Below, piece after piece: positions 29,456 to 62,880 of a stretch of 64,000 nt of DNA. The position numbers were made by a program, and so were the translations under genes. The notes under the pieces are model-generated. The model did not search any database, had not been told where the DNA came from, and was given only the letters and a program-made list of their open reading frames with translations. Location: contig NZ_CP013854.1 in the NCBI RefSeq assembly GCF_001698125.1, positions 2,480,001 through 2,544,000 of the forward strand, in the 5' to 3' direction. The DNA comes from Pseudonocardia sp. HH130630-07 (GTDB taxonomy: Bacteria; Actinomycetota; Actinomycetes; Mycobacteriales; Pseudonocardiaceae). Position 1 is the first letter of the stretch, and the number at the start of each line of letters is the position of its first letter.

Positions 29456-30901
29456 TCAGGCTGACTGCTCGCAGCCCGGCGCCCCTGTCAACGTCGGCCG
29501 GGCGTCGCCGATCCCGACCGTCTGTTCGACGTAGCAGGTGGGCGACGAGCGGTGGTCCAGGTGTTCGAGAGAGTGGGTGGACAGGCTGAAGCGCAGCGGG
29601 CCGGGGTCGGGCTCGCCGCCGGGTGCGGCGATCAGGCTGACGAACAGGTTGAGCAGTCCGACGCTGACGTTCGGCGAGAGTAGTGCGACGTTCTCGTGGC
29701 CGCCGCCGATGTCAGGACCGGCGCCAGCGATGTAGTGGGGGTCATCGAGCAGGCCTTGGCGGTCGATCTGGACCAGGGCGGGATCGAGCTGCTTGTTGCA
29801 CACCATGCAGGGCCGCCCGGGCCGCAGCGCGTGCGTGCGAACGGTGGCGTTGCGCATGCCCGTGCCGTCGTCGAAGGCGTCGATGCCGATGCCGCCGTCG
29901 AGGACCGGGATGAGGTCGGTGTAGGCGAGGGAGTTGAGGACTGCGCGGGCCCAGGGGCGGTCGACGCAGCTGAAGATGACGTCGTAGTCCAGCGCGATCG
30001 CGTGCGCCTCCGGGTCGCACACGCTCATGCGGTGGCCGACGATGTCGGGCTGCTCGGCGGTCGCCGCCGCGCGCATCAGCTGGACCGCGACGTCGACCTT
30101 CGGGCGGCCCAAGCTGGCGTCGCGGCGCGTGGCGCCGATGAGCCGGTCCAGGTTGAGGCGCTTGACGATGTCGGGGTCCATGACGGCGATGTGCTGCACG
30201 CCGGCTGCGGCGAGGCGGACAGCGACGTCGAGTCCGACGCTACCGACCCCGACAACGAGGATGCGCAGCCGGGAGAAGTCGGCCTGGATGGTGGTGCCCC
30301 ACGCGGAGATGGTGCGCTGCTGGGTGTCCTGGGCGCGCGGCGACGGGCGCAAGTGGTCGTTCCAGCTCACGCGCAACTGCCCGCCGTCGATGCGGACGCC
30401 CTCCGCCCAGACCGGGGTGCCGGTGCTGGTCCAGGTGCGCGCGGACCACGCCTGGTCGACCCCGGCGAGGGTCATGCCGAGCAGCGGCAGGCCGGTGATC
30501 GCCTCGACGAGGTGTGCGTAGGACTGCTCGGCGTCGGCGTCCCAGGGGCTCATGCGCTGCCAGCCGCGCCCGCGGAGGTGGGAGTGCAGGATGGCGACAC
30601 CGAGCCCGGCGGCGGCGGCCTGGACCGCCGCGCGCACCATGTAGTCGCCGGTGAACGAAACGTTGCGGTGCACGGTGCGCTCGCCGGGCTTCGGCGTGAC
30701 GACGTCGCGCAGCAGCGCGGTCCAGCGCCGGCTGCCGGTGGAGGGGGCGTAAGTGGCCAGGCACAGGTCTTCCTGCCCGTCGGCTCGTAGCAAGTGCTGG
30801 TGCAGCAGCTCGTCGATGGTCTCGGTCATCGCCACCGAGACGGTCGGCGCGGAGTTCGTAGACCCCGGAATGATCCGGGTCGGGACGTTCGACATCGTCA
30901 T
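29456..30901 (-). CDS. Fused JAB isopeptidase - E1-like (ThiF) adenylyltransferase
   Basis: This 481-residue protein joins the activating and processing enzymes of a ubiquitin-like pathway. The N-terminal JAB/MPN+ domain has the full JAMM set: Glu44, His106 and His108 (HSH), Ser118 and Asp121. It should therefore be an active zinc isopeptidase. The C-terminal ThiF domain has the nucleotide loop GVGSVG (218-223), the following acidic residue in AVMDPDIVKRLNLDRL, and a CMVC pair near the catalytic/zinc region (RPGRPCMVCNKQLD). It lies 2 bases after the E2-like gene in the operon Ubl - E2-like - JAB/E1. In most bacterial systems these two activities are separate genes. No CD-NTase is nearby, so this is not CBASS. 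Confidence 0.88.
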   Translation of the reverse strand: MTMSNVPTRIIPGSTNSAPTVSVAMTETIDELLHQHLLRADGQEDLCLATYAPSTGSRRWTALLRDVVTPKPGERTVHRNVSFTGDYMVRAAVQAAAAGLGVAILHSHLRGRGWQRMSPWDADAEQSYAHLVEAITGLPLLGMTLAGVDQAWSARTWTSTGTPVWAEGVRIDGGQLRVSWNDHLRPSPRAQDTQQRTISAWGTTIQADFSRLRILVVGVGSVGLDVAVRLAAAGVQHIAVMDPDIVKRLNLDRLIGATRRDASLGRPKVDVAVQLMRAAATAEQPDIVGHRMSVCDPEAHAIALDYDVIFSCVDRPWARAVLNSLAYTDLIPVLDGGIGIDAFDDGTGMRNATVRTHALRPGRPCMVCNKQLDPALVQIDRQGLLDDPHYIAGAGPDIGGGHENVALLSPNVSVGLLNLFVSLIAAPGGEPDPGPLRFSLSTHSLEHLDHRSSPTCYVEQTVGIGDARPTLTGAPGCEQSA

Positions 30902-30903
30902 GG

Positions 30904-31275
30904 TCAGCTCGCCGTCTCAAGAACGGACCTGACGTGCGCGATCCACGCCTGAGCCGGTTCGGTGGCGTCCCCCCAACCGGCGATCTGCCGGGAGTGGCGA
31001 ACCCAGCCCGGCAGGGTCTCGTCGACGTTCGCGTTGGTTGCGGCGAACCCGACATCCGCGGGGAAGTGAACCCAGTGCGGTGGGCACTGCGGCCACATCG
31101 ACAGCTCGTCGATCTGTACCCCGGTAGGGGTTGCGCGGCCGGCGCGGGCGCCGGCCACCGCCTCGACCGTGAAGGTGATGACCGACCCCTGCACGACCGC
31201 AGTGATGCCACATCGGTCGAGGCCAGCGAGGAAATCGGTCACCGTGTCCGGCACGGTCGAGGCGGTGTCCATCAT
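30904..31275 (-). CDS. E2-like (prokaryotic UBC family E type) protein
   Basis: The 123-residue protein lies between the ubiquitin-like gene (ATGA overlap) and the JAB/E1 gene. Its sequence around MWPQCPPHWVHFP and the C-terminal helix (TEPAQAWIAHVRSVLETA) matches the compact E2-fold proteins that accompany multiubiquitin proteins in bacteria (Prok-E2_E type). Only two cysteines are present, in DRCGIT and WPQCPP; the latter lies in the Trp/Pro/His-rich motif and is the more likely functional residue. The assignment rests on motif and gene order, not on a search. Confidence 0.75.
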   Translation of the reverse strand: MMDTASTVPDTVTDFLAGLDRCGITAVVQGSVITFTVEAVAGARAGRATPTGVQIDELSMWPQCPPHWVHFPADVGFAATNANVDETLPGWVRHSRQIAGWGDATEPAQAWIAHVRSVLETAS

Positions 31276-31523
31276 GCGACCGTGGCGGTCTGGCGGACGC
31301 TGACGAACTTGTCGCCGTTGGAGATGGCAACCTCGTCAGTGTCGGCGTAGCCGATCGGCTCGCGGTGCCCGGGGCGAACCTGCTTGAGGTCGTAGCCGGC
31401 GGGGTCGAGACCGCCAAGCCGCAGGATCGCGGCGGCGGGCATCCGGCTGGCGTCGGTGACGAGCTTGCGCCCGTCGAGGGTGAAGTGCACCTGGCGCGGC
31501 TTGCGGTTCGAGACGTCGGTCAT
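31272..31523 (-). CDS. Ubiquitin-like protein (multiubiquitin-domain type)
   Basis: The 83-residue protein fits one beta-grasp domain of the Multiubiquitin family: VHFTLDGRKLV, then AAAILRLGGLDPAGYDLKQV, then DEVAISNGDKFVSV. It ends ...VRQTATVA with no C-terminal di-Gly, so if it is conjugated the chemistry or processing differs from ubiquitin, or the JAB domain trims it. It is first in a three-gene operon with E2-like and JAB/E1 genes. AGAAGGACGG precedes the ATG. The promoter region is shared with the divergent XRE gene. Confidence 0.8.
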   Translation of the reverse strand: MTDVSNRKPRQVHFTLDGRKLVTDASRMPAAAILRLGGLDPAGYDLKQVRPGHREPIGYADTDEVAISNGDKFVSVRQTATVA

Positions 31524-34512: not shown

Positions 34513-35511
34513 TCAAGGGGCGACGACACCGAAGAACTGCGCCGCGACGACCACCTCCGCGGATCGGGTGGCCGGGAGGCGGTGGTGCGGGACGGTCTGC
34601 CCGGACATCAGGAACGGTGTCGGGCCGATGTCGAATCCGATACCACCGTCGGGATGTCCGTGGGTCCGCCCGGACAGCGCCCCGATGTCTTCGAGCGGTG
34701 TCGTCGCGAGTTCGGGCTGCAAGTACAGCGGCTCGACGGGCCCGTCGAGCAGGGTGAGGACAACGAGCTCGGTGGCGACGGGGTCGGTGTGCAGCGGGCT
34801 GGCGTCCCCGTCGCGGTGGAAGTTGTAGAACACCCCCGTCGGGGCCACCGCGACACCGGTCTCCGCACGGATGCGGCGGGCCAGCGAACCGGACCAATGC
34901 CGATTCAGCAGGGCCGGTCCCGCGTCGGCGTAGCAGAAGCCGCCGTATCCGCCGGTCACGCAACCGCGCTCGATCGTCGACACCCCCGAGTGGCCCTCGA
35001 TCGCTCCCGAACGCAGTGCGAGCGCCTCACGTCGCAGACCGTCACGGGTCCCGTCGTCGACGGCCCCGTCGAGTCGAGTGTGGATGATCCCGAGTCCGGG
35101 GGCCGCGACGCGCGGGTACGACTGCGGTGCGGGCCAGCCCCAGAGGTCGGTGTCCCCGCCGGGGAACATGTGCCGGTAGAGGTGGTGGATCCGCTCGTCG
35201 GGCGGGGGGCCGCCTGGGTGCGGCGGGGGAGCGAGCCGTCCAGGATCGACACCGGTTCCGGCGACGAGCCCGGCGCAGTCGGTGGTGAACCGCGGCCGGC
35301 CGGCGTGCAGGCGCCGGAAGCGTCCGACCGGCCCGCCTGGCTGCACGTCGAGCTCCGGATGCGTCACGGCGAGGAGTAGGAAGCGGCGGTACTCCAGCGC
35401 AGTGGCCTCGCGGTGGTGGTAGGGGGCGTCCGGGGCGACGCCGACGGCGAACCGGGACTGGACGTCCGCGAGATCGAGATCGGCCACCCGCGCCGCCAGC
35501 GTGTCGTCCAC
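34513..35511 (-). CDS. Possible 2OG-Fe(II)-oxygenase-like protein with GRDP-like N-terminus
   Basis: The 332-residue protein is divergent from the peptide gene. The N-terminal part (EYRRFLLLAVTHPELDVQP ... GRFRRLHAGRPRFTTDC) resembles glycine-rich-domain-type proteins. The C-terminal half has features of the 2-oxoglutarate/Fe(II) fold: a candidate HxD (PLHTD) after FYNFHRDGD and a distal His/Arg (TVPHHRLPATR). Position next to a RiPP-type cluster suggests a tailoring hydroxylase. This is a weak assignment from pattern only, and the protein could be something new. Confidence 0.55.
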   Translation of the reverse strand: MDDTLAARVADLDLADVQSRFAVGVAPDAPYHHREATALEYRRFLLLAVTHPELDVQPGGPVGRFRRLHAGRPRFTTDCAGLVAGTGVDPGRLAPPPHPGGPPPDERIHHLYRHMFPGGDTDLWGWPAPQSYPRVAAPGLGIIHTRLDGAVDDGTRDGLRREALALRSGAIEGHSGVSTIERGCVTGGYGGFCYADAGPALLNRHWSGSLARRIRAETGVAVAPTGVFYNFHRDGDASPLHTDPVATELVVLTLLDGPVEPLYLQPELATTPLEDIGALSGRTHGHPDGGIGFDIGPTPFLMSGQTVPHHRLPATRSAEVVVAAQFFGVVAP

Positions 35512-35549: not shown

Positions 35550-35595
35550 TGAATGACTGTTCAAGTGTTGATTTGGTACTTAGATGCATTAGCAT
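35550..35595 (+). promoter_or_regulatory. Candidate promoter with SmtB/ArsR-like palindrome for the peptide operon
   Basis: TGAATGACTGTTCA (35550-35563) is an imperfect palindrome of the TGAnCAnnTGnTCA type used by ArsR/SmtB metal sensors. It abuts TTGATT (35568-35573) and, after 16 bases, TAGCAT (35590-35595), a plausible -35/-10 pair. An 18-of-27 match to the same stretch recurs at 40167-40193 in front of the ABC importer genes. Confidence 0.55.
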
Positions 35596-35641
35596 CACAA
35601 CGGGCGCCCGGACCGTCAATTCCGACACGGAGGAGCAGGTC

Positions 35642-35770
35642 ATGAATCACCACGGCTACGAGTACGAGGAGAGCGACGATGCTGCGCCGCGCCGGCTCCG
35701 GGCCCACACCCCGGCCGTCGAGGACACCTTCAGCTGGCTGATCGGCGACCTGGCCGACACCGAGAAGTGA
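35642..35770 (+). CDS. Putative RiPP precursor peptide
   Basis: The 42-residue peptide starts at an ATG with an excellent ribosome-binding site (ACGGAGGAGCAGGTC) and lies just before an E1-like/YcaO gene. The N-terminal half is acidic (YEYEESDD), with a basic patch PRRLR, then AHTPAVEDTFSWLIGDLADT. It has no Cys. The only hydroxyl residues are Ser11, Thr23, Thr29, Ser31 and Thr40. If it is the YcaO substrate, the product would be an oxazoline/oxazole, amidine or thioamide rather than a thiazole. A strong hairpin directly after the stop would make the peptide more abundant than the enzymes, as in other RiPP operons. Confidence 0.7.
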   Translation: MNHHGYEYEESDDAAPRRLRAHTPAVEDTFSWLIGDLADTEK

Positions 35771-35775
35771 GTCGC

Positions 35776-35806
35776 CGGGGTGGGGAGATGCGTTCTCCCC
35801 GCCCCG
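35776..35806 (+). terminator. Attenuator hairpin between peptide and YcaO gene
   Basis: CGGGGTGGGGAGA (35776-35788) pairs with TCTCCCCGCCCCG (35794-35806) across a TGCGT loop, with one T-G wobble. It begins 6 bases after the peptide stop. Partial termination here would raise peptide mRNA relative to downstream genes. It also argues against the early in-frame GTG (35767) as the YcaO start. Confidence 0.75.
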
Positions 35807-35844
35807 TGCCTCGACCGGGACGTGGGCGCGACAGGGGGACTCCG

Positions 35845-37785
35845 GTGGTGATCGCCAAGGCGACAACCGTCGCACATCACCAGGGACCTGACGCGACGAC
35901 CGCGTCGATCTCGCTGGTCACCGCACCGTCCGGCTCCGATCCGATCGCGGACGAGGTCCGGCGGCTGCTGAGCGAGCGGGCCGACGTTCGGGCGGAGATC
36001 GGGGACCGGCCGGACCCGGCTGTGCATGACGTCGTCGTCGCCTGCGCGAACGCTCTGCCCGATGATCGGTGGCAGGACCTCGACGCCCTCTGCGAGGGTG
36101 CGGGCCTCGCCTGGCACCGCGTGCACGTCGAGGGGCCGGTGGTCTGCGTCGGCCCGTTCACCATGCCCGGCGTCTCTGCCGGCTACCGGGACTGGCGTGC
36201 CCGGCGCCTGGCCGCGAGCCGGAACCCCGACGGCCTTCTCGACCGCTGGTCTCGCGCGGACCGGGTTCCGGGTCCCCGGCCGAACTCGGAGACCGTGGTG
36301 ACGGCGGCGCAGCTGGTCGTCGACGACGTGCTCGCCCACCTGCGCGGCGAACGCGCGCCCGGGGCCGATCACGAGGTCCGCATCAGCGGCGCGACCCTCA
36401 CTCGCCACCCGGTGCTGCCGCTCCCCGGAAAGCACTCCGCCGGGACCGCGACGGGAACGAGCCCCGAGGATCGCCTCGTGGACGCCCGCACCGGGATCGT
36501 CACCGCGCTCCGTGCGTCGCGACCCGGTCCCTACTCGTCCTCACTGGCCTGCGTCGAGGCCGAGGTCTGCGACACGCGGGTCTTCGCGCCGTGGCGGGCG
36601 GACCCCGCGGCCGGTGGGGCGACACTCGGAGACCCGGACGCGGCCCGCCGCGCTGCCCTCGGGGAAGCCGTCGAGCGCTACTGCGGCAACGCCATACCTC
36701 CGGACCTGCCGCGCGGCACCGCCCGGGACCTCCGCGCGCTCGGCCACCGGGTCGTGTCACCCGGTGCGCTGACGCTGTACTCGGCGGCGCAGTACGCAAC
36801 GCCGGGCTTCCCGTTCGTCCCGCTGCACGACGACCTGACGCTCGACTGGGCCCGGGGCTGCGACCTCGTGACCGGTGACCCGATGCTCGTGCCCGCGGCG
36901 GCGGTCCACCTCAACGGGCCGGGTACCCGGCCCGGAGGCCCGGCCCCGGTATCGCCGCCGGCCCTGGCCGGCATCGCGGCAGGGGAGACGGCGACGGCGG
37001 CACAGCGGGCGGCGATGGAGGAGGTCCTGGAGCGCGATGCCGTCACGGTGTGGTGGGCGACCGGCGACCACGCGACCGCCCTTGATGTCACGGGTGACCC
37101 GGTGATCGCGGACACCCTGTCGGGGCCCGTCTGTGGCCGGCTCGACGCGCGGTTCCTCCTGCTGCCCTGCCTGGTCGACGTCCCGGTCGCCGCCGTGCTG
37201 CTCCACGACCCGCACCGCGGGCTGATCGGCGTCGGGACCGCCTGCCGTCCGACCACGACCGCGGCCGCGCACAAGGCGCTGACCGAGGCTCTCGTATCCC
37301 TGGAGGTCGCTCGAGAGCTGGCCGACCCGGACAGCCCGTTCTGGACCGACGTCCGTGCCGGGCGCCTGCCCGCCGCGCCCTACCGCCCGTTCCACGACGA
37401 CCGGTCCTACCGGGACCTGTACCGGGCGGACTGGCGGGACCTCACGTCGCTCGAACCGAACGTTCAGCTCTACCTGGACCCGCGGATGCAGGCCGTCGCC
37501 CTGGCTCGGACCCGCCCCGCGACGCCCGCGATCCCCCTCGGCGCGGGGCCCACCGTGACCGGCGACCCGCGGTCGGCGTATCTGCGGGAGCTGACCGGCG
37601 CCGGGCTGTCCGCGGTCGGCGTCGACCTGACGACCGACGACGTCGCGCGGGCGGGGCTGCGCGTGAGCCGGGTCGTCGTCCCCGGCCTCTACCAGCTCGC
37701 GCCGGCGGCGTTCCCGCTGCTCGGCGGTACTCGCCTGGACCGGGACCCCGACATCCCGGTGCCCCCGCCGCTGCCGTTCTCGTGA
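35845..37785 (+). CDS. E1-like/YcaO fusion cyclodehydratase
   Basis: The 646-residue protein (longer if read from GTG 35767) has an N-terminal part like the leader-binding/ocin-ThiF partner of azoline synthetases (WHRVHVEGPVVCVGPFTMPG). A C-terminal YcaO domain follows. ATP/Mg residues are visible in LGEAVERYCGN (Glu274, Glu277, Arg278) and in AAMEEVLERDAV (from Glu392). The C-terminus ends in the Pro-rich signature IPVPPPLPFS typical of azoline-forming YcaO enzymes. It would activate peptide backbone amides with ATP to install azolines or related changes. The start is GTG 35845, after AGGGGGA and after the attenuator hairpin. It is followed after 19 bases by the flavin/F420 enzyme. Confidence 0.87.
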   Translation: MVIAKATTVAHHQGPDATTASISLVTAPSGSDPIADEVRRLLSERADVRAEIGDRPDPAVHDVVVACANALPDDRWQDLDALCEGAGLAWHRVHVEGPVVCVGPFTMPGVSAGYRDWRARRLAASRNPDGLLDRWSRADRVPGPRPNSETVVTAAQLVVDDVLAHLRGERAPGADHEVRISGATLTRHPVLPLPGKHSAGTATGTSPEDRLVDARTGIVTALRASRPGPYSSSLACVEAEVCDTRVFAPWRADPAAGGATLGDPDAARRAALGEAVERYCGNAIPPDLPRGTARDLRALGHRVVSPGALTLYSAAQYATPGFPFVPLHDDLTLDWARGCDLVTGDPMLVPAAAVHLNGPGTRPGGPAPVSPPALAGIAAGETATAAQRAAMEEVLERDAVTVWWATGDHATALDVTGDPVIADTLSGPVCGRLDARFLLLPCLVDVPVAAVLLHDPHRGLIGVGTACRPTTTAAAHKALTEALVSLEVARELADPDSPFWTDVRAGRLPAAPYRPFHDDRSYRDLYRADWRDLTSLEPNVQLYLDPRMQAVALARTRPATPAIPLGAGPTVTGDPRSAYLRELTGAGLSAVGVDLTTDDVARAGLRVSRVVVPGLYQLAPAAFPLLGGTRLDRDPDIPVPPPLPFS

Positions 37786-37804
37786 ACCGTCCACTGGAGG
37801 TCGG

Positions 37805-38830
37805 ATGAAGCTGGGCCTTGCCCTCGGATACGGGGGCGAACCGATGGGCGAGGTACTGCCCGCCGTGCGGGCCGCGGACCGCTGCGGGTTCGACTCGGTC
37901 TGGAGCCTGGAGGAGTTCGGCGCGGACGGCGTCTCCATCCTCGGCTATCTCGCCGGGCAGACCGACCGGATCCGGCTCGGTACCGGAATCCTGCAGATCG
38001 GGGCCCGCACGCCCGCCCTGACCGCCATGACGGCGGCGACCCTGGACATACTCAGCGAGGGGCGGGCGCTGCTCGGGCTCGGAGTATCGCAGCCCTGGTT
38101 GATGGAGGGATGGCACGGCGTCCCGTTCACCCCGCCCGTCGACACGATCCGCGAGTACGTCGCGGTCGTACGGGCAGCCGTCGCGCGCGAGGCACCGCTG
38201 GAGTTCGACGGCCGCCACTACACCGTCCCGTACCGGGGGCCGGACGCCCGTGGGCCCGGCCGGTCGATCCGGTCCCAGATGAAGCCCCTGCGGCCGTCGG
38301 TGCCGATCTACCTCGGGACCACCGGACCTCGCGCCGTCCGACTCACCGGTGAGATCGCCGACGGCTGGATCGCCGGCGGCCTCTACCTCCCGGAGCACGA
38401 GAAGGTCTGCCTCGCCCCGCTCGACGAGGGGCTCGCCCGCAGTGGACGGGAAGCGGACGCCGTCGCCGTCACGAAGATCGTCGACGTGCTGGTCGACGAC
38501 GACCTGGACGCGGCGCGGGACGAGGTCCGCCCGGTCCTCGCGTCCTACATCGGCCCGCGCGGTGTCGGCGTGGAGAACACCCACTTTGCGCAGGCCTGTG
38601 AGATGGGGTGGGAGGAGGCAGCGCACCGGATCCGCGAGCACCACGTCGAGGGCAGGCGGTCCGATGCCTGGGCCGCCGTGCCGGACGACCTGGTGGACGC
38701 ATTCGCGCTCATCGGGTCCAGGGAGCGCATCCTGGACCGGCTCGGTGCGTGGGCCGGGTCGCGTGTGGACACCCTGATCCTGCTGACCCGCGACGTCGAA
38801 CTCATCGAGGCCGCGTCGGGCGTGCTGTGA
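37805..38830 (+). CDS. LLM-class flavin/F420-dependent oxidoreductase
   Basis: The 341-residue protein has the luciferase-like TIM-barrel pattern of F420-dependent oxidoreductases (MKLGLALGYGG, AADRCGFDSVWSLEEF, LGTGILQIGARTPALTAMTAATLD, GRALLGLGVS). TGGAGG lies 8 bases before the ATG. In a RiPP setting such an enzyme could oxidise azolines to azoles or reduce a dehydro residue. Its stop overlaps the MATE start (GTGA), so peptide, YcaO, oxidoreductase and exporter form one transcription unit. Confidence 0.87.
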   Translation: MKLGLALGYGGEPMGEVLPAVRAADRCGFDSVWSLEEFGADGVSILGYLAGQTDRIRLGTGILQIGARTPALTAMTAATLDILSEGRALLGLGVSQPWLMEGWHGVPFTPPVDTIREYVAVVRAAVAREAPLEFDGRHYTVPYRGPDARGPGRSIRSQMKPLRPSVPIYLGTTGPRAVRLTGEIADGWIAGGLYLPEHEKVCLAPLDEGLARSGREADAVAVTKIVDVLVDDDLDAARDEVRPVLASYIGPRGVGVENTHFAQACEMGWEEAAHRIREHHVEGRRSDAWAAVPDDLVDAFALIGSRERILDRLGAWAGSRVDTLILLTRDVELIEAASGVL

Positions 38831-40170
38831 CGCTCACCCGTGACGCGTCACCGCTGCGCGAGCTGTGGCGGCTGGTCGTTCCGCTGATCGTCACCATGTT
38901 CGCGCAGGTCGCGATCGTCCTGACGGACACCGCGCTGGTGGCCCGCTACTCCACCGCGGCGCTGGCCTCGGTCGCCCTGGCTGCGCCCGTCTATCTCATC
39001 GCGGTCATGGTCGTCCGGGGCTGGGCTACCGCCGCCCAGATCGTCGTGGCGCGGCGCTTCGGGTCCGGCGACGTCCCGGCGGTTGCCGGGGCGACCGCCG
39101 TTGCGCTCCTCGCCGGAGTCGTGACGGGTGTCGTGTTCTCCGGCTCGTTGATCCTGACGGCGGGTCCGGTGCTGGGGGCGTTAAGTGATGACCCGGCCGT
39201 CGTCGCGGGCAGTGTCGACTACCTGCGCATCGTCGCCGTCGGCGTGCCGTTCGCGGCGGCGTCGGCGGTGCTCCAGGCCGCGTTCGCCGGCCTCGGCGCC
39301 ACTCGGATCGCGATGGTGTCGACACTGCTCATGATCATCGTGAATCTGGTGCTGGGCGTGACGCTGGTCTTCGGAGCAGGGTTCGGGGTCGTCGGGGCCG
39401 GTTTGTCCACCGTGGTGTCGACGGTCGTCGGTACCGCCTACCTCATCTGGTTCGCCCGCAGCCGTATCGGCTCGGTCGTGCCCGGCGCGGTGCTGCTGGC
39501 CCGCGGTGATCTCGCGCGTGGCCGGGTCGCCGTGCCGGTGCTCGCCCGCCTGGCGTGGCCGGAGGCCGCTCTGCTGTTCTTCGGCTACCTCAACGAGGTC
39601 CTGGTGGTGGGGTTCGCCGCGCAGGTCGGGAGCGTGGACCTGGCGGCGTACCGTCTCCTGGACAACCTCACGCTGGTGATCTATAACCTGCTCGCCGCGG
39701 TCGGTGCGGGGATCGCGATCCTGGCCGGTCAGTGCCTTGGGGCGGGGGATGTCGCGGCCGTCCGGACCTACCAGCGGACAGGGGTCGTACTGGCTCTCGT
39801 GCTCGCCACGCCGCCGGCGGTGCTGGCCGCCCTGTTCCCCGGGACGCTGTTCTCGCTCGCGACGGCGGACACGGCCGTCGTCGACCTCGCGGCGTCCACC
39901 GCGCCGCTCGCCGTCGTGACGCTGGTTCCGATCGTGCTGTCGCTGAACATCGCGGGCGTACTGCGTGCGTCCGGCGACAATGTCACCGTGATGATCGCGT
40001 CGCTGGTGGCCGACTACGCGGTGCTGGTGCCGCTGGCCTGGTTCCTCGGGCTGGTCCTCGGCTGGGGGCTGACCGGGATCTACGTCGCGTGGCTGGGCTT
40101 CGGTCTCACGATGCTCGCGATCACGGGGTGGCGGTACGCGACGGGCCGATGGCGGACCCAAATCGTATGA
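38827..40170 (+). CDS. MATE-family efflux transporter
   Basis: The 447-residue membrane protein has twelve hydrophobic segments in the two-lobed MATE arrangement (PLIVTMFAQVAIVLTDTALV at the start; the second half begins near LAWPEAALLFFGYLNEVLVV). MATE proteins export organic cations and natural products by H+ or Na+ antiport. As the last gene of the peptide/YcaO/oxidoreductase unit it is the likely product exporter. The stop lies inside the SmtB-like palindrome that precedes the importer genes. Confidence 0.87.
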   Translation: MTLTRDASPLRELWRLVVPLIVTMFAQVAIVLTDTALVARYSTAALASVALAAPVYLIAVMVVRGWATAAQIVVARRFGSGDVPAVAGATAVALLAGVVTGVVFSGSLILTAGPVLGALSDDPAVVAGSVDYLRIVAVGVPFAAASAVLQAAFAGLGATRIAMVSTLLMIIVNLVLGVTLVFGAGFGVVGAGLSTVVSTVVGTAYLIWFARSRIGSVVPGAVLLARGDLARGRVAVPVLARLAWPEAALLFFGYLNEVLVVGFAAQVGSVDLAAYRLLDNLTLVIYNLLAAVGAGIAILAGQCLGAGDVAAVRTYQRTGVVLALVLATPPAVLAALFPGTLFSLATADTAVVDLAASTAPLAVVTLVPIVLSLNIAGVLRASGDNVTVMIASLVADYAVLVPLAWFLGLVLGWGLTGIYVAWLGFGLTMLAITGWRYATGRWRTQIV

Positions 40171-40181
40171 GCACTTGCTCA
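40168..40181 (+). promoter_or_regulatory. SmtB/ArsR-like palindrome before the ABC importer
   Basis: TGAGCACTTGCTCA is a perfect 6-2-6 inverted repeat in the TGAnCAnnTGnTCA pattern. It overlaps the MATE stop and sits 56 bases before the binding-protein start. The 27-base window 40167-40193 matches 35549-35575 at 18 positions. The importer operon therefore probably has its own promoter, co-regulated with the peptide operon. Confidence 0.6.
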
Positions 40182-40236
40182 ACTGTCGATTCGATCCATA
40201 CAGTTCGGGCTCCACAAGAGACCCCAGGAGGCAGCG

Positions 40237-41271
40237 GTGTCGAGTCCGGAGACGATCGCGGCATCCGCCGTTGGCACCCGCCGTCGGTCGGCGATGCTGC
40301 GCCTCTGCACAGTGGCGATGGCCGTCGCGCTCGCTGCGGGTTGCTCCGCGGCGCCGTCGACCGAGGCGCCGCCACAGACGCCCGCGGCTGCACCCGGCTT
40401 CCCGATGACGATTGACAACTGCGGTGTGCAGGTCCGCCTGGACGCCCCGCCGCAGCGCGTCGTGACGATCTACCAGCACCCGGCGGAGATCATGTACGCG
40501 CTCGGACTCGAGCGCTCGATGGTCGGGACGGCCTACCCGGACAACCCCTATCTGCCACAGTTCGCGGCCGCGAACGCGTCGGTGCCGCAGATCTCGGACA
40601 AGGACGCGTCGTTCGAGCAGGTGCTCGTCACCGGACCGGACATGGTCTACGGCGGCTACGACTCGGCGTTCTCCGCGGACAAGGGCACCGCCCGGGAGCG
40701 CTACCAGCAGTCCGGCGTCGCGACCTACCAGAATTCGGAGGCCTGCACGCCAAAGGTCACGATGGACACCGTCTGGTCCGAGATCCGGACGGTCGCGCGC
40801 ATGTTCGGCGTCCCGGAGCGCGGCGAGTCGCTCGTCGGTGACCTGCAGCGACGGGTGGACGCGTCGAGCGCCCGCGTCGCCGGTGCCCCGCCGGTGAGCG
40901 TGTTCGTCTACGACAGCGGCGAGGACACCGCGTTCACCGCCGGCGGGCGCGGGATCAGCAACGACGTGATCGCCCGCGCCGGCGGGCGCAACGTGTTCGG
41001 GGACCTGGACGACCTCTTCGGCGACGTCTCGTTCGAGCAGGTCGCGCAGCGGGCCCCGGACGTGATCGTGATCTACGACTACGTCGACGGCAGCGGCGGC
41101 GTCGAGGCGAAGAAGCGGTTCTTGCTCGGGCGTCCGGAGCTGGCCAGCGTGCCGGCGATCCGCAACCAGCGCTTCACCACGCTCACCCTGCAGGACGGCG
41201 TCGTCGGTGTCCGTCCGCCGATGGCCGTGGAGACCCTCGCCCGCGCCCTGCACCCCGACCGCTTCCGGTGA
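40237..41271 (+). CDS. ABC importer substrate-binding lipoprotein (Fe-chelate/cobalamin/F420-0 class)
   Basis: The 344-residue protein has a lipobox (ALAAGCS), so it is an outer-face lipoprotein. The fold is the type III periplasmic-binding class: DNCGVQVRLDAPPQRVVTIY at the start, AEIMYALGLERSMVGTAY, and PDMVYGGYDS. The family binds iron chelates, heme or cobalamin. Actinobacterial three-gene cassettes of this type have also been proposed to import F420-0, which is of interest next to an F420-type enzyme. AGGAGG lies before the GTG. It is coupled to the permease by GTGA. Confidence 0.87.
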   Translation: MSSPETIAASAVGTRRRSAMLRLCTVAMAVALAAGCSAAPSTEAPPQTPAAAPGFPMTIDNCGVQVRLDAPPQRVVTIYQHPAEIMYALGLERSMVGTAYPDNPYLPQFAAANASVPQISDKDASFEQVLVTGPDMVYGGYDSAFSADKGTARERYQQSGVATYQNSEACTPKVTMDTVWSEIRTVARMFGVPERGESLVGDLQRRVDASSARVAGAPPVSVFVYDSGEDTAFTAGGRGISNDVIARAGGRNVFGDLDDLFGDVSFEQVAQRAPDVIVIYDYVDGSGGVEAKKRFLLGRPELASVPAIRNQRFTTLTLQDGVVGVRPPMAVETLARALHPDRFR

Positions 41272-42356
41272 CGATCGCGCCCCGCCGACCGGCCACGGCG
41301 GATCTCGCTCCCGGCTCGCACTGGCGCCAGCCCGCGGTGCTCGTCGTGCTGACGGCCGTGCTGGTCGTCTCGGTCACCGCCGGGATCTCGATCGGCTCGG
41401 TCAGGATCCCGCCCGGGCAGGTCTGGTCCAACCTTGCGGCCGCGGTGACCGGCGGGCGGATCGATGCGACCGGGCCACCTTTCGTGCAGGCGATCGTCAC
41501 CCAGAGCCGCGCTCCGCGGGTTCTGCTCGCCGTCGTCGTCGGTGCCGGCCTCGCCGTCGTCGGCGCCGCGCTGCAGGCGCTGGTGCGCAACATGCTCGCC
41601 GACCCGTTCCTGCTCGGCGTCTCGTCCGGCGCCTCGGTCGCCGCGGTGCTCGTCATCATCTCCGGCGCCACCGCCGTCCTCGGCCTCACGACGCCGGTCG
41701 CGGCGTTCCTCGGCGCGTTGCTGGCGCTGTTCGTGGTCTACGCGATGTCGCGGTCCGGCGGGCAGGTCACGCCTACCCGGCTGGTGCTCTCCGGCGTCGC
41801 CGTCGCCTACGTCCTGTCCGCCCTGACCAGCCTGCTCCTGATCCTCGCGGCCCGCCCGGACGCCTACCGCGAGGTCCTGGCGTGGCTGCTAGGCAGCCTC
41901 GGCCGAGCCACCTGGGACCTGCTGTGGCTGCCCACGGGGGCGGTCGTGGTCGGTGTGGCGATCCTGCTCGCCGCGGCCCGCCCGTTGAACCTGTTGCTCG
42001 CGGGCGACGAGGCCGCGACGACGATGGGTGTCGACGTCCCGCGGTTCCGCGCGGGGATGTTCGTCCTGACCTCGCTCGTCACCGGCGTCCTGGTCTCGGT
42101 GTCCGGACCGATCGGCTTCGTCGGGCTGATCGTCCCGCACGCGGTGCGCCTGGTCGTCGGCAGCGACCACCGCAGGCTCCTCCCGGCCGCCGCCCTGAGC
42201 GGCGCGTCGTTCCTGGTGTGGGCCGACATCGCCGCCCGCACGGTCGCGTCGCCGATCGAGGTCCCGGTCGGGGTGCTGACCGCGCTGTGCGGCGGGCCGT
42301 TCTTTCTGTGGCTCGTGCGGCGCGAGGCTCGCCGCGGTACCCGGACCAGCGCATGA
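41268..42356 (+). CDS. FecCD-type ABC permease
   Basis: The 362-residue permease has nine to ten hydrophobic segments with BtuC/FecCD family signatures (SRAPRVLLAVVVGAGLAVVGAALQ, RNMLADPFLLGVSSGAS, and GPIGFVGLIVPH near the C-terminus). It pairs with the binding protein upstream and the ATPase downstream in overlapping reading frames. It is intact, unlike the related permease at 60.6-61.7 kb. Confidence 0.88.
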   Translation: MTIAPRRPATADLAPGSHWRQPAVLVVLTAVLVVSVTAGISIGSVRIPPGQVWSNLAAAVTGGRIDATGPPFVQAIVTQSRAPRVLLAVVVGAGLAVVGAALQALVRNMLADPFLLGVSSGASVAAVLVIISGATAVLGLTTPVAAFLGALLALFVVYAMSRSGGQVTPTRLVLSGVAVAYVLSALTSLLLILAARPDAYREVLAWLLGSLGRATWDLLWLPTGAVVVGVAILLAAARPLNLLLAGDEAATTMGVDVPRFRAGMFVLTSLVTGVLVSVSGPIGFVGLIVPHAVRLVVGSDHRRLLPAAALSGASFLVWADIAARTVASPIEVPVGVLTALCGGPFFLWLVRREARRGTRTSA

Positions 42357-43156
42357 GCGACCCGGCCGGGCTGGCCGTGTCCGACCTGGCGGTCCGGCTC
42401 GGCGGACGGACCGTCGTCGACGGCGTGTCGTTCGCCCTGGACCCGGGCCGCACGCTCTGCCTCGTCGGGCCGAACGGCAGCGGCAAGTCGACGCTGCTGC
42501 GCGCCGTCCTACGGATCCTGCCCGCGGAGCACGGGACGGTCGCACTCGACGGTCAGGCAGCGGGGGAGTTCTCCGCCCGCGAGTTCGCCCGCAACGTCGC
42601 CGCGGTCCTGCAGGACCCCGGAGCCGAGTTCGACATGTCGGTGCGCGAGGTCGTCGGCATGGGGCGCTCGCCGTTCCAGCGCCTGCTCGTCTCCACCGAG
42701 TCCGACGACGAGGAGACCGTCGCCGCAGCACTGGCCGCAGCCGGCGTCGCGCACCTGTCCGAGCGGTCGTATCGGACGCTGTCCGGTGGAGAGCGTCAGC
42801 GCGTGGTCATCGCCCGTGCCTTCGCGCAACGCCCCCGGCTCCTGGTGCTCGACGAACCGACCAACCACCTCGACGTCCGCCACCAGTTCGACGTGCTGGA
42901 CGCCGCGCGGCGCCGGGGCGTCACCACCGTGATGGCCCTGCACGACCTCAACCTCGCTGCGCACTACGGCGACGACGTCGCCGTCCTGCACGACGGTCGT
43001 CTGCACGCCCACGGCCCGCCCGCGGACGTGATCACCGAGGAGATGGTGCGCGACGTCTACGGCGTACGGGCCGAGGTCGCCCCCGACGCCGACACCGGCC
43101 GCCCGCACATCCGCTTCCGACCCCCTGCCCCCGACCGCCGAGGAGTCACCCCGTGA
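42353..43156 (+). CDS. FecE/BtuD-type ABC ATPase
   Basis: The 267-residue protein has Walker A GPNGSGKST, the ABC signature LSGGERQRV, and Walker B LLVLDEPTNHLD, followed by a His-loop (ALHDLNLAAHYGD). It powers the importer encoded by the two preceding genes (ATGA overlap) and ends overlapping the ferredoxin-like gene, indicating that all four are co-translated. Confidence 0.9.
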   Translation: MSDPAGLAVSDLAVRLGGRTVVDGVSFALDPGRTLCLVGPNGSGKSTLLRAVLRILPAEHGTVALDGQAAGEFSAREFARNVAAVLQDPGAEFDMSVREVVGMGRSPFQRLLVSTESDDEETVAAALAAAGVAHLSERSYRTLSGGERQRVVIARAFAQRPRLLVLDEPTNHLDVRHQFDVLDAARRRGVTTVMALHDLNLAAHYGDDVAVLHDGRLHAHGPPADVITEEMVRDVYGVRAEVAPDADTGRPHIRFRPPAPDRRGVTP

Positions 43157-43818
43157 CCCACCCGACCGACCGGGCCGTCGTGCTGGTCGCCCGACCGACT
43201 CCCGCCGGCCTCGATGAGCGGGCCTTGCGCCGGCTCGCCGGAGCCGTCGCCGGCCGGGTGCCGGATTCCGTTCATGTCGCGCACCTCGACCACGAGGCGC
43301 CCTCTTTGCACGACGTCCTGGACGAGCTGGCTGCAGCTGGGGCGGCTTCCGTACTGGTCCTGGCGCTCGCGGTGCCCGCAGACCGCTACCTCACGAGCTG
43401 GATTGCGAAAGCCGTCGCCAACTGGCGCGAGACCCGGGCGTCCACCCTCGCGATCCGCCAGGCCGACGGGCTGACGGACCTGCCCGGCGTTGCCGACGCC
43501 GTCTCCGATCTCGTCGCGTCCGGCGGCCGGCCGGTCACCGCCTCCCCGGCCGGGTTCCGCAGCCCGGCCTGGTCGGACCTGGAGATCCCGGACCGCCACC
43601 TGCTCGTCTGCCGCGGTCCCCGCTGCACCGCACACGGAGCCGGTGCCACACAACGCGCGCTGGCGGACGCCTCCCGCGGAACGGGCACGCAGGTCACCGG
43701 CATGTCCTGCATCGGACCCTGCAACCTCGGACCGCTGGTCATCGAGCACCCGACCGGGCAGTGGCACCAGCACGTCGACACGAAGCGAGCGGAAGCGCTG
43801 GCGGCGGACCTGCCCTGA
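43153..43818 (+). CDS. Chelatase-like / (2Fe-2S) ferredoxin-like fusion
   Basis: The 221-residue protein has an N-terminal half reminiscent of class II chelatases (CbiX-like: RLAGAVAGRVPDSVHVAHLD, SVLVLALAVPADRYL). The C-terminal half is a thioredoxin-like 2Fe-2S ferredoxin with four cysteines in two pairs: LLVCRGPRC and SCIGPC. It is the last gene of the importer operon. A redox protein with a metal-chelatase-like domain would suit reductive release of a metal from an imported chelate. That is inference from domain and context. Confidence 0.78.
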   Translation: MTHPTDRAVVLVARPTPAGLDERALRRLAGAVAGRVPDSVHVAHLDHEAPSLHDVLDELAAAGAASVLVLALAVPADRYLTSWIAKAVANWRETRASTLAIRQADGLTDLPGVADAVSDLVASGGRPVTASPAGFRSPAWSDLEIPDRHLLVCRGPRCTAHGAGATQRALADASRGTGTQVTGMSCIGPCNLGPLVIEHPTGQWHQHVDTKRAEALAADLP

Positions 43819-45925: not shown

Positions 45926-47667
45926 GACCCGAATCCGCGAGTAGGCTATGAGCTGATCTTGGTCGGCCAAAGTTGATGTTGCTTGGGTCGGGAGTGGGGT
46001 GGTGGGCAAGCGGGCGGCCCGAGTGTCGCCTCGGGTGGCGGGTTCCTGTGCTGGTCGGGGCCGGTGCGGCCGGGTCAGGACGGAGCGGGCAGGGCGCGGA
46101 CGCGGGCGAGGACCTCGGCGAGTAGGTGCTCGCCGGGTGGTAGGCGCAGGGTGAGGCCGCGGGCGTGGCGCACGAGGCGGGCGGGGATGGTGATCAGCCG
46201 CCGGCGCAGGGTGGCGATCATGGCCTGGCCGCCGCGGACGCCGTGCCCGACCAGGCGCCCGTCGCGGGTGCGGGCGGTGAGGTGGTGCAGCCACCCGCTG
46301 GTGGTGGCGGCCAGGAGTGCGCCCCACATCCAGGCTCGGTTCACCGCGAGGTGTCCGGAGGGGAGGTGGCGCAGCGCGGCGCCGTGCTTGGTGTCGCGGA
46401 ACAGGTTCTCCACCTTCGTGCGGTGGCGGTACCAGTACTCGGCCTGCGCGGCTGCGGCAGGTGTGGAGACGTCGAGGTTGGTCACGATGAACGAGTAGGC
46501 GAACACCCCGTCGACCTTGGCCACCGTAGCGAGGTCGTCGAGCGGGAGCGCCCGCTGGGCGGGGTGCAGGGTGCGTCGGCGCCGCGCTCGCGGGTCACCG
46601 GAGACCTGGCCGTGGTCCAGGTCGAGCCGGACCCGACGGATCAGCAGCTGGGTCGCTGCGGGCCACCAGTTCGGGCAATAGTCGGCCACCGCGACCTGCG
46701 CGCCGGTCATGTCGATCGCGTCGGTCCACCCGTCGGCCGCGACGCCGTCGAGGATGCGCCACAGCGGCGCGATGCGTCGGGCGCCGATGGCGAACTCCAC
46801 GCCGACGAACAGGGCTGCGCGGGCGAGCTGCCCGGCGAAGTAGCCCGCGTCCGCACGCACGCGGACTCGCCCCGCCCGCGCCTGCGCGGGGAGCGCGGCC
46901 AGCGCCCGGTGGAACAGCTCGGCGCTGGTGGCGCGGGGGTCATCCCGGCCCGAACCGAGGTCAGCGGCCAGCACCACCGCGGTGTCGGCCCAGGTCGCGA
47001 CGTGCGGGCGGGCGACCCGCTGGCCTTGGTGGTTGAACGCCACGCCCTGCTTGAGCCGGCCGTAAACCTCGACATCGGTGGTGTCCAGATCGATCGTCAC
47101 GTCCGCCGTCAGCTGCTCGGCCCGGTCCGGGTCGACCTGGGCGAGCAGGTCCAGCGCGGTGGTGTGCACGTCACCGAGCCCGGTCTCCACCGCCGCCCAC
47201 TGCCCCTCGATGAACTTGCGCGCGAGCCCGGCGGCGGTCGTGGACGCCAACCCCGGCACCGGCGTGAGTGCCTGCCCGGCGGTGTCGGCGCGGTGCCGGT
47301 CCAGCCCGACCAGGAAGTCCTCCCCGCACAGCTGCGCCGCCGACATGCCGACCAGCATCTGCCCGGCGCTGCACCCGCGGTCGCGGTCCTTGATGGGCCC
47401 GACCGCGGCGTCGAGCTTGTCGATGATCCCGAGCCGGTCGATCAGCTCGGTCACCGCGGCCAGCCCGGAGAACCTGGTCAGCGCCGCGTCCGGCGCGCCG
47501 AGACGCACCCGCGCACACCGCGGGCGTCGCTTGCGTACTGTTCGCACCTGATAGGTGTCCTCTCAACCCGCAATGTCGTGTCGTCGCAAACACGATCATC
47601 GCAGGTCAGCGGGCACCTATCGCCATCTCCCCAGTCCGGCCACCAGCGCAACTCGCGGATTCGGGTC
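45926..47667 (-). mobile_element. IS1380-family insertion sequence
   Basis: A transposase gene is flanked by perfect 17-bp inverted ends GACCCGAATCCGCGAGT (45926-45942) and its reverse complement (47651-47667), giving about 1.74 kb. No target duplication can be recognised beside these ends, so the exact boundary or an old rearrangement is open. Confidence 0.85.
46075..47547 (-). CDS. IS1380-family transposase
   Basis: The 490-residue DDE transposase shows catalytic blocks at DLDTTDVEVYGRLKQGVAFN (first Asp), RVRADAGYFAGQLARAALF (second Asp) and YRHRTKVENLFRDTKHG (Glu). This layout and the N-terminal FSGLAAVTELIDRLGIIDKL fit the IS1380 group. The frame is full length and looks functional. It starts from a GTG just inside the right inverted end. 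Confidence 0.9.
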   Translation of the reverse strand: MRTVRKRRPRCARVRLGAPDAALTRFSGLAAVTELIDRLGIIDKLDAAVGPIKDRDRGCSAGQMLVGMSAAQLCGEDFLVGLDRHRADTAGQALTPVPGLASTTAAGLARKFIEGQWAAVETGLGDVHTTALDLLAQVDPDRAEQLTADVTIDLDTTDVEVYGRLKQGVAFNHQGQRVARPHVATWADTAVVLAADLGSGRDDPRATSAELFHRALAALPAQARAGRVRVRADAGYFAGQLARAALFVGVEFAIGARRIAPLWRILDGVAADGWTDAIDMTGAQVAVADYCPNWWPAATQLLIRRVRLDLDHGQVSGDPRARRRRTLHPAQRALPLDDLATVAKVDGVFAYSFIVTNLDVSTPAAAAQAEYWYRHRTKVENLFRDTKHGAALRHLPSGHLAVNRAWMWGALLAATTSGWLHHLTARTRDGRLVGHGVRGGQAMIATLRRRLITIPARLVRHARGLTLRLPPGEHLLAEVLARVRALPAPS

Positions 47668-59865: not shown

Positions 59866-60645
59866 TCAGGGCGGGTCGAGTTCGCGCAGCAGGACCCGCG
59901 GACGTCCGTCGACGGGGTCGGGGACCACGCGGCCGTCGACCCGGAAGTGCTCCGCCAGCAGTGTGCGGGTGAAGACCTCCGCCGGGGGCCCCACCGCGAC
60001 GACCCGGCCCCCGGACAGGACCGCGGCGAGATCGGCGTAGCGGGCGGCGAGATCGAGCGAGTGCAGGGCGGCGACGACGGTCGTCCCCAGTTCCCGGGCC
60101 AGGCGCAGTACGCCCAGCTGGTGCTGCGGGTCCAGGTGGTTGGTCGGCTCGTCGAGCACCAGCACCCGCGGCTGCTGGGCGAGCGCCCGCGCGAGCAGCA
60201 CCCGCTGGCGCTCCCCGCCGGACAGCTCGGACAGCGGCCGGGCGGCGAACCCGGTGCACCCGGTGCGTTCCAGCGCCGCCGCGACGACGGCGGCGTCGGC
60301 CGGGCCCGGCCGGCCGAAGGTGCCGAGGTGCGGTGCGCGCCCGAGCATCACCGACTCGTGCACGGTGAAGCCGAACCCGCCGTCGGTGTGCTGGGCGAGC
60401 ACGCCGACCGCGCGGGCGTTGTCGCGGTGCGGCACCGCCCAGAGGTCGTCGGCGCCGAGGACCAGGTGCCCGCGTTGCGGGCGCAGCGCCCGGAACAGCG
60501 TCCGGAGCAGGGTGGACTTGCCGGAGCCGTTCGGGCCGACCAGGGCGAGGAAGGCCCCGTCCGGGACGGTGAGGTCGACGTCGTGCACGACCGGCGGTCC
60601 GCCGTGGCCGACCGTGACGCCGTCGAGCGTGAGCGTCGCGTTCAC
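59866..60645 (-). CDS. FecE/BtuD-type ABC ATPase (second importer)
   Basis: The 259-residue protein has Walker A GPNGSGKST, signature LSGGERQRV, Walker B VLVLDEPTNHLD and the His loop (AALHSLDLAARYAD). The GTG start overlaps the permease stop. It is the last gene of a binding protein - permease - ATPase operon of the iron-chelate/cobalamin class, parallel to the one in the integrated element. Confidence 0.9.
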   Translation of the reverse strand: MNATLTLDGVTVGHGGPPVVHDVDLTVPDGAFLALVGPNGSGKSTLLRTLFRALRPQRGHLVLGADDLWAVPHRDNARAVGVLAQHTDGGFGFTVHESVMLGRAPHLGTFGRPGPADAAVVAAALERTGCTGFAARPLSELSGGERQRVLLARALAQQPRVLVLDEPTNHLDPQHQLGVLRLARELGTTVVAALHSLDLAARYADLAAVLSGGRVVAVGPPAEVFTRTLLAEHFRVDGRVVPDPVDGRPRVLLRELDPP

Positions 60646-61714
60646 CCGCCGACCGCTCCGGTGGCGCTGCGGCGCAGCAGGACCAGGAAGAACGGCACCC
60701 CGACCGCGGCGGTGAGGATCCCGATCGGCAGCTCGGTCGGCGCCAGCAGCAGCCGGGCCGCGGTGTCCGACCAGACGACGAGCAGCGCCCCCAGCAGCAC
60801 GCACGCCGCCACGGTGCGGCGGTGGTCGGCCCCGAACAGCAGGCGGGCCGTGTTCGGGACGACCAGCCCGACGAACCCGATGCTCCCGGACACCGCGACG
60901 ACCGTGCCGGTGAGCAGCCCGGTCAGCAGGAACACCGCGGCCCGGACCCGGGTCGGGTCGGCACCGAGCGCGGACGCCGCGTCCTCCCGAGCACGAGCAG
61001 GTTCACCCGGCTCGCACCGAGCACCGTCGCCACGACGAGCAGCGCGACGACCGCGGCGGCCGTCGCCAGCAGGTCCCAGCGGGCCCCGGCGAGGCTGCCG
61101 AGCATCCAGAACAGGACCTGCCGGGTCGCGTCGGGGTCGCGTGTGGACAGCAGCAGGAACGACGTCACCCCGGCCAGCAGCTGTCCGACGGCGACGCCGG
61201 CCAGCACCATCCGGGCCGCCTGCAGCCGTCCGCGGACCCGGGCGACGGCGAACACCAGCAGGCCGGTGACCGTCGCCCCGGCGAAGGCCGCCGCCGGCAG
61301 GACGAGCAGCCCGGCCGCCGTCCCGACGGTGGTGATGACCAGCACCGCGCCCACCGACGCCCCGGACGACAGCCCCAGCACGTACGGATCGCCGATGGGG
61401 TTGCGGACCATCGCCTGCACCAGCAGGCCGGCGACCGACAGCCCGGCCCCGACGACGACCCCCAGCAGCACCCGCGGCACGCGCAGCTCCCACACGATGA
61501 AGTCCGTCGCGGGCCGGACGGCGGGGCCGGCGCCGCCGAGGTGCGCCCCGACGGAGGCGAGCACCGTCCCCGGCGGGATCCACACCGGACCGAGCCCGAC
61601 CGCGACGACGACCGAGCCGATCAGCGCGACCGCCCCGGCCGCGAGCACCGCGCCGAAGGGCACCCGGCCGAGCAGGCCACCGGCCGGGATCTCCCGCCGC
61701 ACCGTGAGCGTCAC
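60642..61714 (-). pseudogene. FecCD-type ABC permease with one-base frameshift
   Basis: The N-terminal two thirds (from GTG 61714: PRVLLGVVVGAGLSVAGLLV, RNPIGDPYVLGLSSGAS) and the last third (GSIGFVGLVVPNTARLLFGA, ILTAAVGVPFFLVLL) are in different frames. The frames join as ...NLLVLGEDAASALG if one C is added in the CCC at 60986-60988. Everything else about the gene, including overlaps with both neighbours, looks normal. A sequencing or assembly indel is therefore as likely as real inactivation. Confidence 0.82.
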
Positions 61715-62703: not shown

Positions 62704-62880
62704 CGCGCACCTCTCCCGTCCGGTTGCCGTCCGGTGCTCCAGTCGTCGCCCGGCGGGTGGCGGTTCCGCGGATCGGATGTGACGTGCGCCCGGCCGGATC
62801 GGCGCGGGGGCTTGACCGTGCCGCGACGGCACGGCGTCTGATCGGTGGAGCACCCGAACCGAGAAGGAGCAGACCTCGAT

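Follow-up and report, generated by a model that had tools for sequence, protein, structure and literature searches.

A rare peptide-YcaO operon of Pseudonocardia with kinship to streptamidine loci and a possible corrinoid-type importer

Within a stretch of 64,000 nt from Pseudonocardia sp. HH130630-07 (contig NZ_CP013854.1, positions 2,480,001 to 2,544,000; called the window below, and coordinates are window positions) lie eight co-directional genes on the + strand, spanning 35642-43818. They encode a 42-aa precursor peptide, an E1-like/YcaO fusion, an LLM flavin/F420 oxidoreductase, a MATE exporter, the three components of a FecB/BtuF-class ATP-binding cassette (ABC) importer and a protein that joins a CbiX-like domain to a [2Fe-2S]-type C-terminus. 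The explanation that we favour, and as a whole hold with moderate confidence, is that these genes form a real, rare operon for a ribosomally synthesized and post-translationally modified peptide (RiPP), a divergent fused variant related to the streptamidine loci to which an import cassette of corrinoid or cobalt type has been added.

Streptamidine is made by Streptomyces albidoflavus J1074, and what is said of it here follows PMC8442711. In its precursor AmiA the core HLSATH becomes a six-membered amidine when the residue-1 amine is joined to the residue-2 carbonyl, maturation requires a free core N-terminus, and deletion of AmiB, AmiC, AmiD, AmiE or the FecBCDE-like AmiF1-F4 in each case abolishes production (PMC8442711). 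The survey in that paper covered standalone YcaOs, so that fused enzymes like that of the window fell outside it. A sequence-only reading of the window knew of no described product matching the peptide. The streptamidine family provides a described relative, and its loci too carry FecBCDE-like importers.

The operon and its sister loci

All eight genes are where the sequence-only reading had placed them, and the anatomy that it proposed is confirmed by coordinates and model matches; the gene content also bears out its description of a YcaO-type RiPP operon with genes for export and chelate-type import. Neighbouring genes overlap by 4 bases at five junctions; at the other two, 19 nt separate YcaO from LLM and 66 nt separate MATE from the binding-protein gene. 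The gene order of the operon is also kept in the sister locus L020. A promoter and terminator scan of the window gave nothing useful. The host genome comprises 6.68 Mb in three contigs.

The first gene (35642..35770) encodes the peptide MNHHGYEYEE...LADTEK, which contains no Cys, and GGAGGAGC lies immediately upstream. This is a genuine gene. The peptide is present in five loci, with identities to the window copy of 95% (L020), 78% (L021), 68% (L039) and 62% (L040), and in all of them it precedes the same YcaO and LLM genes. Between the window and L021, 12 of the 18 base changes in the first 33 codons fall at third positions; 9 codons of the peptide are altered synonymously and 6 non-synonymously, as against 2/13 and 0/14 in the other two frames. 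Our judgement rests on the recurrence before YcaO and LLM together with this third-position bias.

The system is rare. Searching with the YcaO at E 1e-90 gave matches in 7 of 390 family genomes, five of which carry this peptide while two (G365, G424) have streptamidine-related peptides, and a sample of 396 genomes from the phylum searched at E 1e-85 yielded the genome of the window only. A peptide scan of a species-level genome collection, which needs exact pattern matches and may omit the record of the window itself and its near relatives, returned three loci, the already known L021, L039 and L040, from Amycolatopsis arida, Amycolatopsis sp. MtRt-6 and Pseudonocardia sp. CNS-139. Amycolatopsis accounts for two of the five loci that carry the peptide. 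Among 246 class genomes the peptide profile found only the window's own, besides a match in G1196 that was rejected, as it lies inside a 1353-residue open frame, presumably that of an NTPase, with no significant YcaO match within 3 kb. No relative was found in viral contigs by either the YcaO or the peptide-alignment scan, and a plasmid scan gave two distant YcaOs, each of 33% identity. For the terms used, no title or abstract start in the open-licence literature was found that describes this peptide-YcaO-LLM system.

The sequence-only reading had proposed a search for homologous loci, and all five loci of this YcaO clade keep the peptide. The gene content of the other four was judged in the 20 kb around each. 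Peptide, YcaO and LLM are present in 5/5, the LLM gene being split over two frames in L040. The MATE exporter occurs in four, none having been found in L040; the L021 and L039 copies are 65% identical to each other and each 31-33% identical to that of the window. The importer is found at the window, L020 and L040. A PepN aminopeptidase is intact in L021 and L039 (above the TIGR02412 cut-off) and lies in pieces across frames in L040; neither the window nor the 20 kb surrounding L020 has a PepN match. The YcaO, LLM, binding-protein and PepN frames of L040 are all interrupted, which may reflect either decay or assembly error.

Streptamidine-type enzyme and peptide

The fusion gene (35767..37785, start uncertain) encodes a protein that matches Pfam YcaO at 163 bits and TIGR03604 at 228 bits (cut-off 219); with the leader-binding/E1-like model TIGR03882 it scores 20.6 bits, below the cut-off of 36.9. 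In a YcaO tree of 24 rows, none of them an experimentally studied AmiD, the five window-type enzymes form a single clade (100/99) that is sister (96/92) to the first YcaO of L022, L041 and L042, and that is separate from the remaining fused YcaOs (L024-L026 and L028). The peptides of L041 and L042 match NF040715, the streptamidine-related RiPP repeat, at 116-119 bits with a cut-off of 45, and a pattern search found peptides ending NALVENPF, NALVEDLF or similar in L022, L027 and L029-L034. By its position in this tree the YcaO groups with those of AmiA-carrying loci. The N-terminal half of the fusion matches the separate AmiB-like protein of L042 at 46% over 138 aa, and the fusions of L021, L039 and L040 have an N-terminal segment resembling the starts of AmiB-like proteins, which may bind the leader.

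Near one of the other fused YcaOs, in L028, there is a short open reading frame (11131-11421, - strand) with five VVHNRA-type repeats, a candidate precursor of another RiPP.

When the peptide profile was compared with an AmiA-like profile by hhalign, the two aligned in the same register with P 0.0015. Trimming both to their shared columns gave P 0.0014, and none of 150 column shuffles reached the score. The peptide and the AmiA precursors are probably of common descent, short of formal family membership. Aligning the peptides to find the core was a check proposed by the sequence-only reading, and the register with HLSATH indicates that the core is most likely RRLRAH, peptide residues 17-22 (35690..35707). 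The corresponding segments are SRLRAH in L020, RRLRAH in L021, RRRLAAH in L039, and RRLRAH followed by Cys in L040. Dehydrated RRLRAH has a computed [M+H]+ of 790.4907 and the L020 core one of 721.422; the same mass sum reproduces the published 647.326 for HLSATH. A core after PAV (EDTFSW) had been considered, and was dropped once the position of HLSATH in the related peptides was seen.

In the pathway that we propose, the E1-like/YcaO fusion would modify the peptide, with the YcaO closing an amidine, perhaps via an azoline, at the start of the short core. The leader would be removed by a PepN-type aminopeptidase where one is encoded, as in three sister loci, and by an unlinked protease in the organism of the window. 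The requirement published for streptamidine, that the core have a free N-terminus, agrees with the presence of PepN at L021, L039 and, as fragments, L040. The LLM enzyme (37805..38830; Bac_luciferase 239 bits, TIGR03559 332 bits, narrowly below its cut-off of 335) would stand in for the flavin dehydrogenase AmiE. An F420H2-dependent LLM-type reductase is used in lexapeptide biosynthesis (PMC8498797). The MATE protein (38827..40170) would then export the product, the FecB/BtuF-class importer would bring it, alone or in a complex, back into the cell, where the CbiX/[2Fe-2S] protein would serve the importer.

The import cassette and competing explanations

The importer consists of a binding protein matching Peripla_BP_2 (40237..41271), a BtuC/FecCD-class permease (41268..42356) and an ATPase (42353..43156), and is followed by the CbiX/[2Fe-2S] gene (43153..43818), whose product matches CbiX at 23.7 bits (cut-off 22) and has a weak 2Fe-2S match. 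FecCD-class permeases occur in 10 of the 15 YcaO regions from the order sample against about 2.5% expected per 20 kb stretch, an expectation that derives from the 8 permease loci of the window's own genome and is not corrected for kinship. This favours the importer as part of the system.

The cassette has relatives that live without the peptide. At E 1e-15 the CbiX/[2Fe-2S] protein has matches in 12 of the 200 family genomes searched, including that of the window and G247. At five of the other ten loci, L049-L058, it directly adjoins a FecCD-class permease or ATPase (L053, L054, L055, L057, L058), at two it accompanies a NikA-class importer (regions L069 and L071, below NikA cut-offs), and at three neither is present. 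It thus occurs elsewhere with importers and without YcaO. In four regions (L075, L076, L077 and L079) the importer begins with a cobalamin riboswitch; that of L079 sits within a cobalamin gene cluster with CobA, CobO, CobBC, CobK and CobQ, and L057 continues with a CobN piece. L080 has no importer; of its cobalamin riboswitches, the one before the CbiX/[2Fe-2S] gene is weak (33.6 bits, threshold 31.5) and the one before a ribonucleotide reductase strong. Scans for this riboswitch found none in L078, whose 5.4 kb contig starts inside the permease, in L069-L072, which hold the closest relatives of the window's CbiX-like protein, or in L073 and L074, importer regions without the CbiX/[2Fe-2S] protein. 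The window protein is about 29-39% identical to the riboswitch-led kin and 55-61% identical to relatives without a riboswitch.

In the alignment the CbiX domain of the window has Arg and Tyr at the two His positions of the CbiX of its own genome. We take this His pair to be the chelatase catalytic pair, from PMC7689651, and on that alignment the domain has lost both chelatase histidines. The sequence-only reading had counted reductive release among the functions represented, which rests on this protein. That role is weakened by the missing histidines and the occurrence of the protein with importers that have no YcaO nearby.

In the permease tree that of the window pairs with the importer of L074, elsewhere in G247 (84/81), and that of L040 pairs with the methyltransferase-linked importer of L077 (99/95). 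Their placement on different branches indicates that the importer was recruited or replaced more than once among the peptide loci. The peptide-free kin, the riboswitches, the lost histidines and the patchy and differing importers at peptide loci together make the import cassette look corrinoid- or cobalt-type and recruited, and the kin of the cassette make a corrinoid or cobalt-type ligand the first candidate for the importer.

Two further observations concern importers of this class. The FecCD-class permeases near streptamidine-type YcaO loci (L022, L023, L027, L029-L034) are of two types, paired and single BtuC-like. The importers at L040 3509-7283 and L077 12434-16293 both stand beside methyltransferase-like genes (39.8% identical to each other); only L040 is a peptide locus.

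Several results weigh against the explanation that we favour. The hhalign probability for the peptide and AmiA-like profiles is 17%, motif A alone gives P 0.019 and motif B alone P 0.032, and when single sequences were shuffled, the numbers out of 1000 that scored as well were 52 (window), 56 (L020), 74 (L021), 19 (L039) and 6 (L040). None of the five peptides matches any NCBIfam model at E 10, NF040714 and NF040715 included. The N-terminal segment of the L021, L039 and L040 fusions is absent in every frame from the window and L020, which have a short Arg/Pro-rich stretch instead; if the segment is a leader-binding element, leader recognition in these two must work otherwise. The CocE/NonD (AmiC-like) and SagB-type (AmiE-like) proteins of L042 have no match in the window or the 20 kb of the four sister loci. 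The 20 kb surrounding L021 and L039 contain no match to the importer's permease or binding protein (a generic ABC ATPase matches at 31% in L021), and neither the window nor L020 has a cobalamin riboswitch.

That no importer was found near L021 and L039 lends weight to an explanation in which RiPP and importer are functionally separate, a corrinoid-class cassette having been inserted behind the RiPP operon and merely sharing its transcript. The sequence-only reading had named an importer conserved without the peptide genes and binding an unrelated ligand as a finding against itself, and this is in part what we see: the class exists without the peptide, and it was not found near two of the five loci. 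The two permease branches point the same way. Against separation, the genes overlap or nearly abut, their order is kept in L020, and importers of the same superfamily recur at streptamidine-type loci, where they are needed for production (PMC8442711). We regard separate functions as unlikely. A metallophore, in which the mature peptide would leave the cell, bind iron, copper or a different free metal ion and return through the importer to give up the metal, seems to us improbable. The siderophore-type logic of the sequence-only reading was fair, and metal import had been proposed for streptamidine by its discoverers in 2021 (PMC8442711). Export and FecB-class import genes are present, FecCD-class permeases are enriched near related YcaO loci, close relatives of the CbiX/[2Fe-2S] protein adjoin the NikA-class importers of L069 and L071, and L021 has an FhuF-like gene just after MATE (FhuF_C above cut-off, whole-protein FhuF models below). 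However, in PMC8442711 streptamidine showed no metal binding by the iron chrome azurol S assay or by liquid chromatography-mass spectrometry with Fe(II), Co(II), Cu(II), Mg(II), Mn(II), Ni(II) or Zn(II), and its YcaO mutant grew like wild type under metal starvation, so that the metal tests there lend the siderophore part no support. The importer was not found near two peptide loci, no IdeR-type box was found in the window with up to 3 mismatches allowed, and the predicted core is Arg-rich with a single His. The FhuF-like gene of L021 lies behind a cobalamin riboswitch, as do 6 of 19 other FhuF-like loci within the stretch examined, and in view of these it may be a B12-regulated neighbour and not part of the system.

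The importer might instead bring F420-0 to the LLM enzyme, as the sequence-only reading had offered as an alternative, and its best NCBIfam models are indeed the putative F420-0 importer triad TIGR03868, TIGR03869 and TIGR03873. The scores lie below the cut-offs (194/392, 327/437 and 279/372 bits, or 49-75%), and the genome encodes cofD, above its model cut-off. The binding proteins of the riboswitch-led L075 and L079 reach 269 and 293 bits on the F420-0 model, above that of the window, so that the model also catches B12-regulated importers. We consider F420-0 import very improbable. The F420-0 importer label may be wrong for the riboswitch-led branch (L075, L076, L077, L079).

The preferred explanation, a streptamidine-related RiPP operon with an added corrinoid- or cobalt-type cassette, bears on a wider question. 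The function of streptamidine-like peptides, and the reason why importers are essential for production, have been in question since 2021. The operon is a compact natural variant that brings together the peptide, modifying enzymes, exporter, importer and an importer-linked redox-type protein, and the sister loci without a detected importer are natural controls. It provides exact masses (790.491 for the window, 721.422 for L020) and a ligand class, the corrinoids, that is not among the ligands named for the streptamidine assays in the available text of PMC8442711. Should the importer prove to take up the peptide, alone or in a complex, the function of a widespread peptide family becomes testable. 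More speculatively, amidine-type YcaO peptides that travel with FecB/BtuF-class importers might in general carry corrinoids or another cobalt-type complex and not free metal ions, a generalization that we hold to be quite doubtful; it starts from the joining, in this one operon, of the peptide, a B12-type importer and a CbiX-like/[2Fe-2S] protein that has lost the chelatase histidines. The negative result with free Co(II) weighs against a plain cobaltophore, and no cobalamin riboswitch was found on scanning 11 regions related to streptamidine, a point against B12 as what unites that family.

Other features of the window were noticed. The divergent neighbour of the operon (34513..35511, - strand), of uncertain membership, is found at full length in the window and L020 only, plus one partial match of 35%, among 297 genomes; it has no Pfam match and its predicted structure has a mean predicted local distance difference test score of 31. 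Its HTD...VPHHR pattern we take to be a 2-oxoglutarate-oxygenase-like motif. A second FecB/BtuCD-class importer lies at 59866-62853 (- strand), with its permease in two frames (60986-61651, 60660-60995), a frameshift or assembly error. At 46075-47547 (- strand) there is a transposase-like gene whose start is identical, where compared, to that of a gene at L074 12118-13590, beside the same-class importer in G247. Finally, a ThiF/E1-like protein followed by two small same-strand genes (30904-31275, 31272-31523) occupies 29456-31523 (- strand), by eye perhaps a separate ubiquitin-like cassette.

Comparison with known systems

Methanobactin, too, is of ribosomal origin and is associated with a MATE exporter and an importer. 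The peptide of the window is, however, Cys-free, its MATE protein scores 25 bits with the MbnM model (cut-off 285), and a methanobactin-like reading was set aside since there is no methanobactin-type modifying enzyme among the family matches of the operon proteins.

For the import cassette the closest comparison is with the BtuFCD-type importers led by B12 riboswitches in L075, L076, L077 and L079. They share with the window a binding protein, single permease, ATPase and CbiX/[2Fe-2S] protein, and the same best NCBIfam model for the binding protein. Unlike the window they have the riboswitch, and neither a peptide nor a YcaO was seen at these loci.

The streptamidine family and the window have in common a short precursor poor in Ser, Thr and Cys that aligns in register, AmiB-like and AmiD-like parts, a FecB/FecCD-class importer at the locus and a flavin-type redox enzyme. 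The window differs in that AmiB and AmiD are fused, an LLM enzyme replaces the AmiE-type dehydrogenase, an AmiC-type hydrolase was not found (PepN being present in three sister loci), and one MATE protein is found in place of two ABC exporters. Its predicted core is Arg-rich, its peptide lies outside NF040714 and NF040715, and its operon ends with the CbiX/[2Fe-2S] protein.

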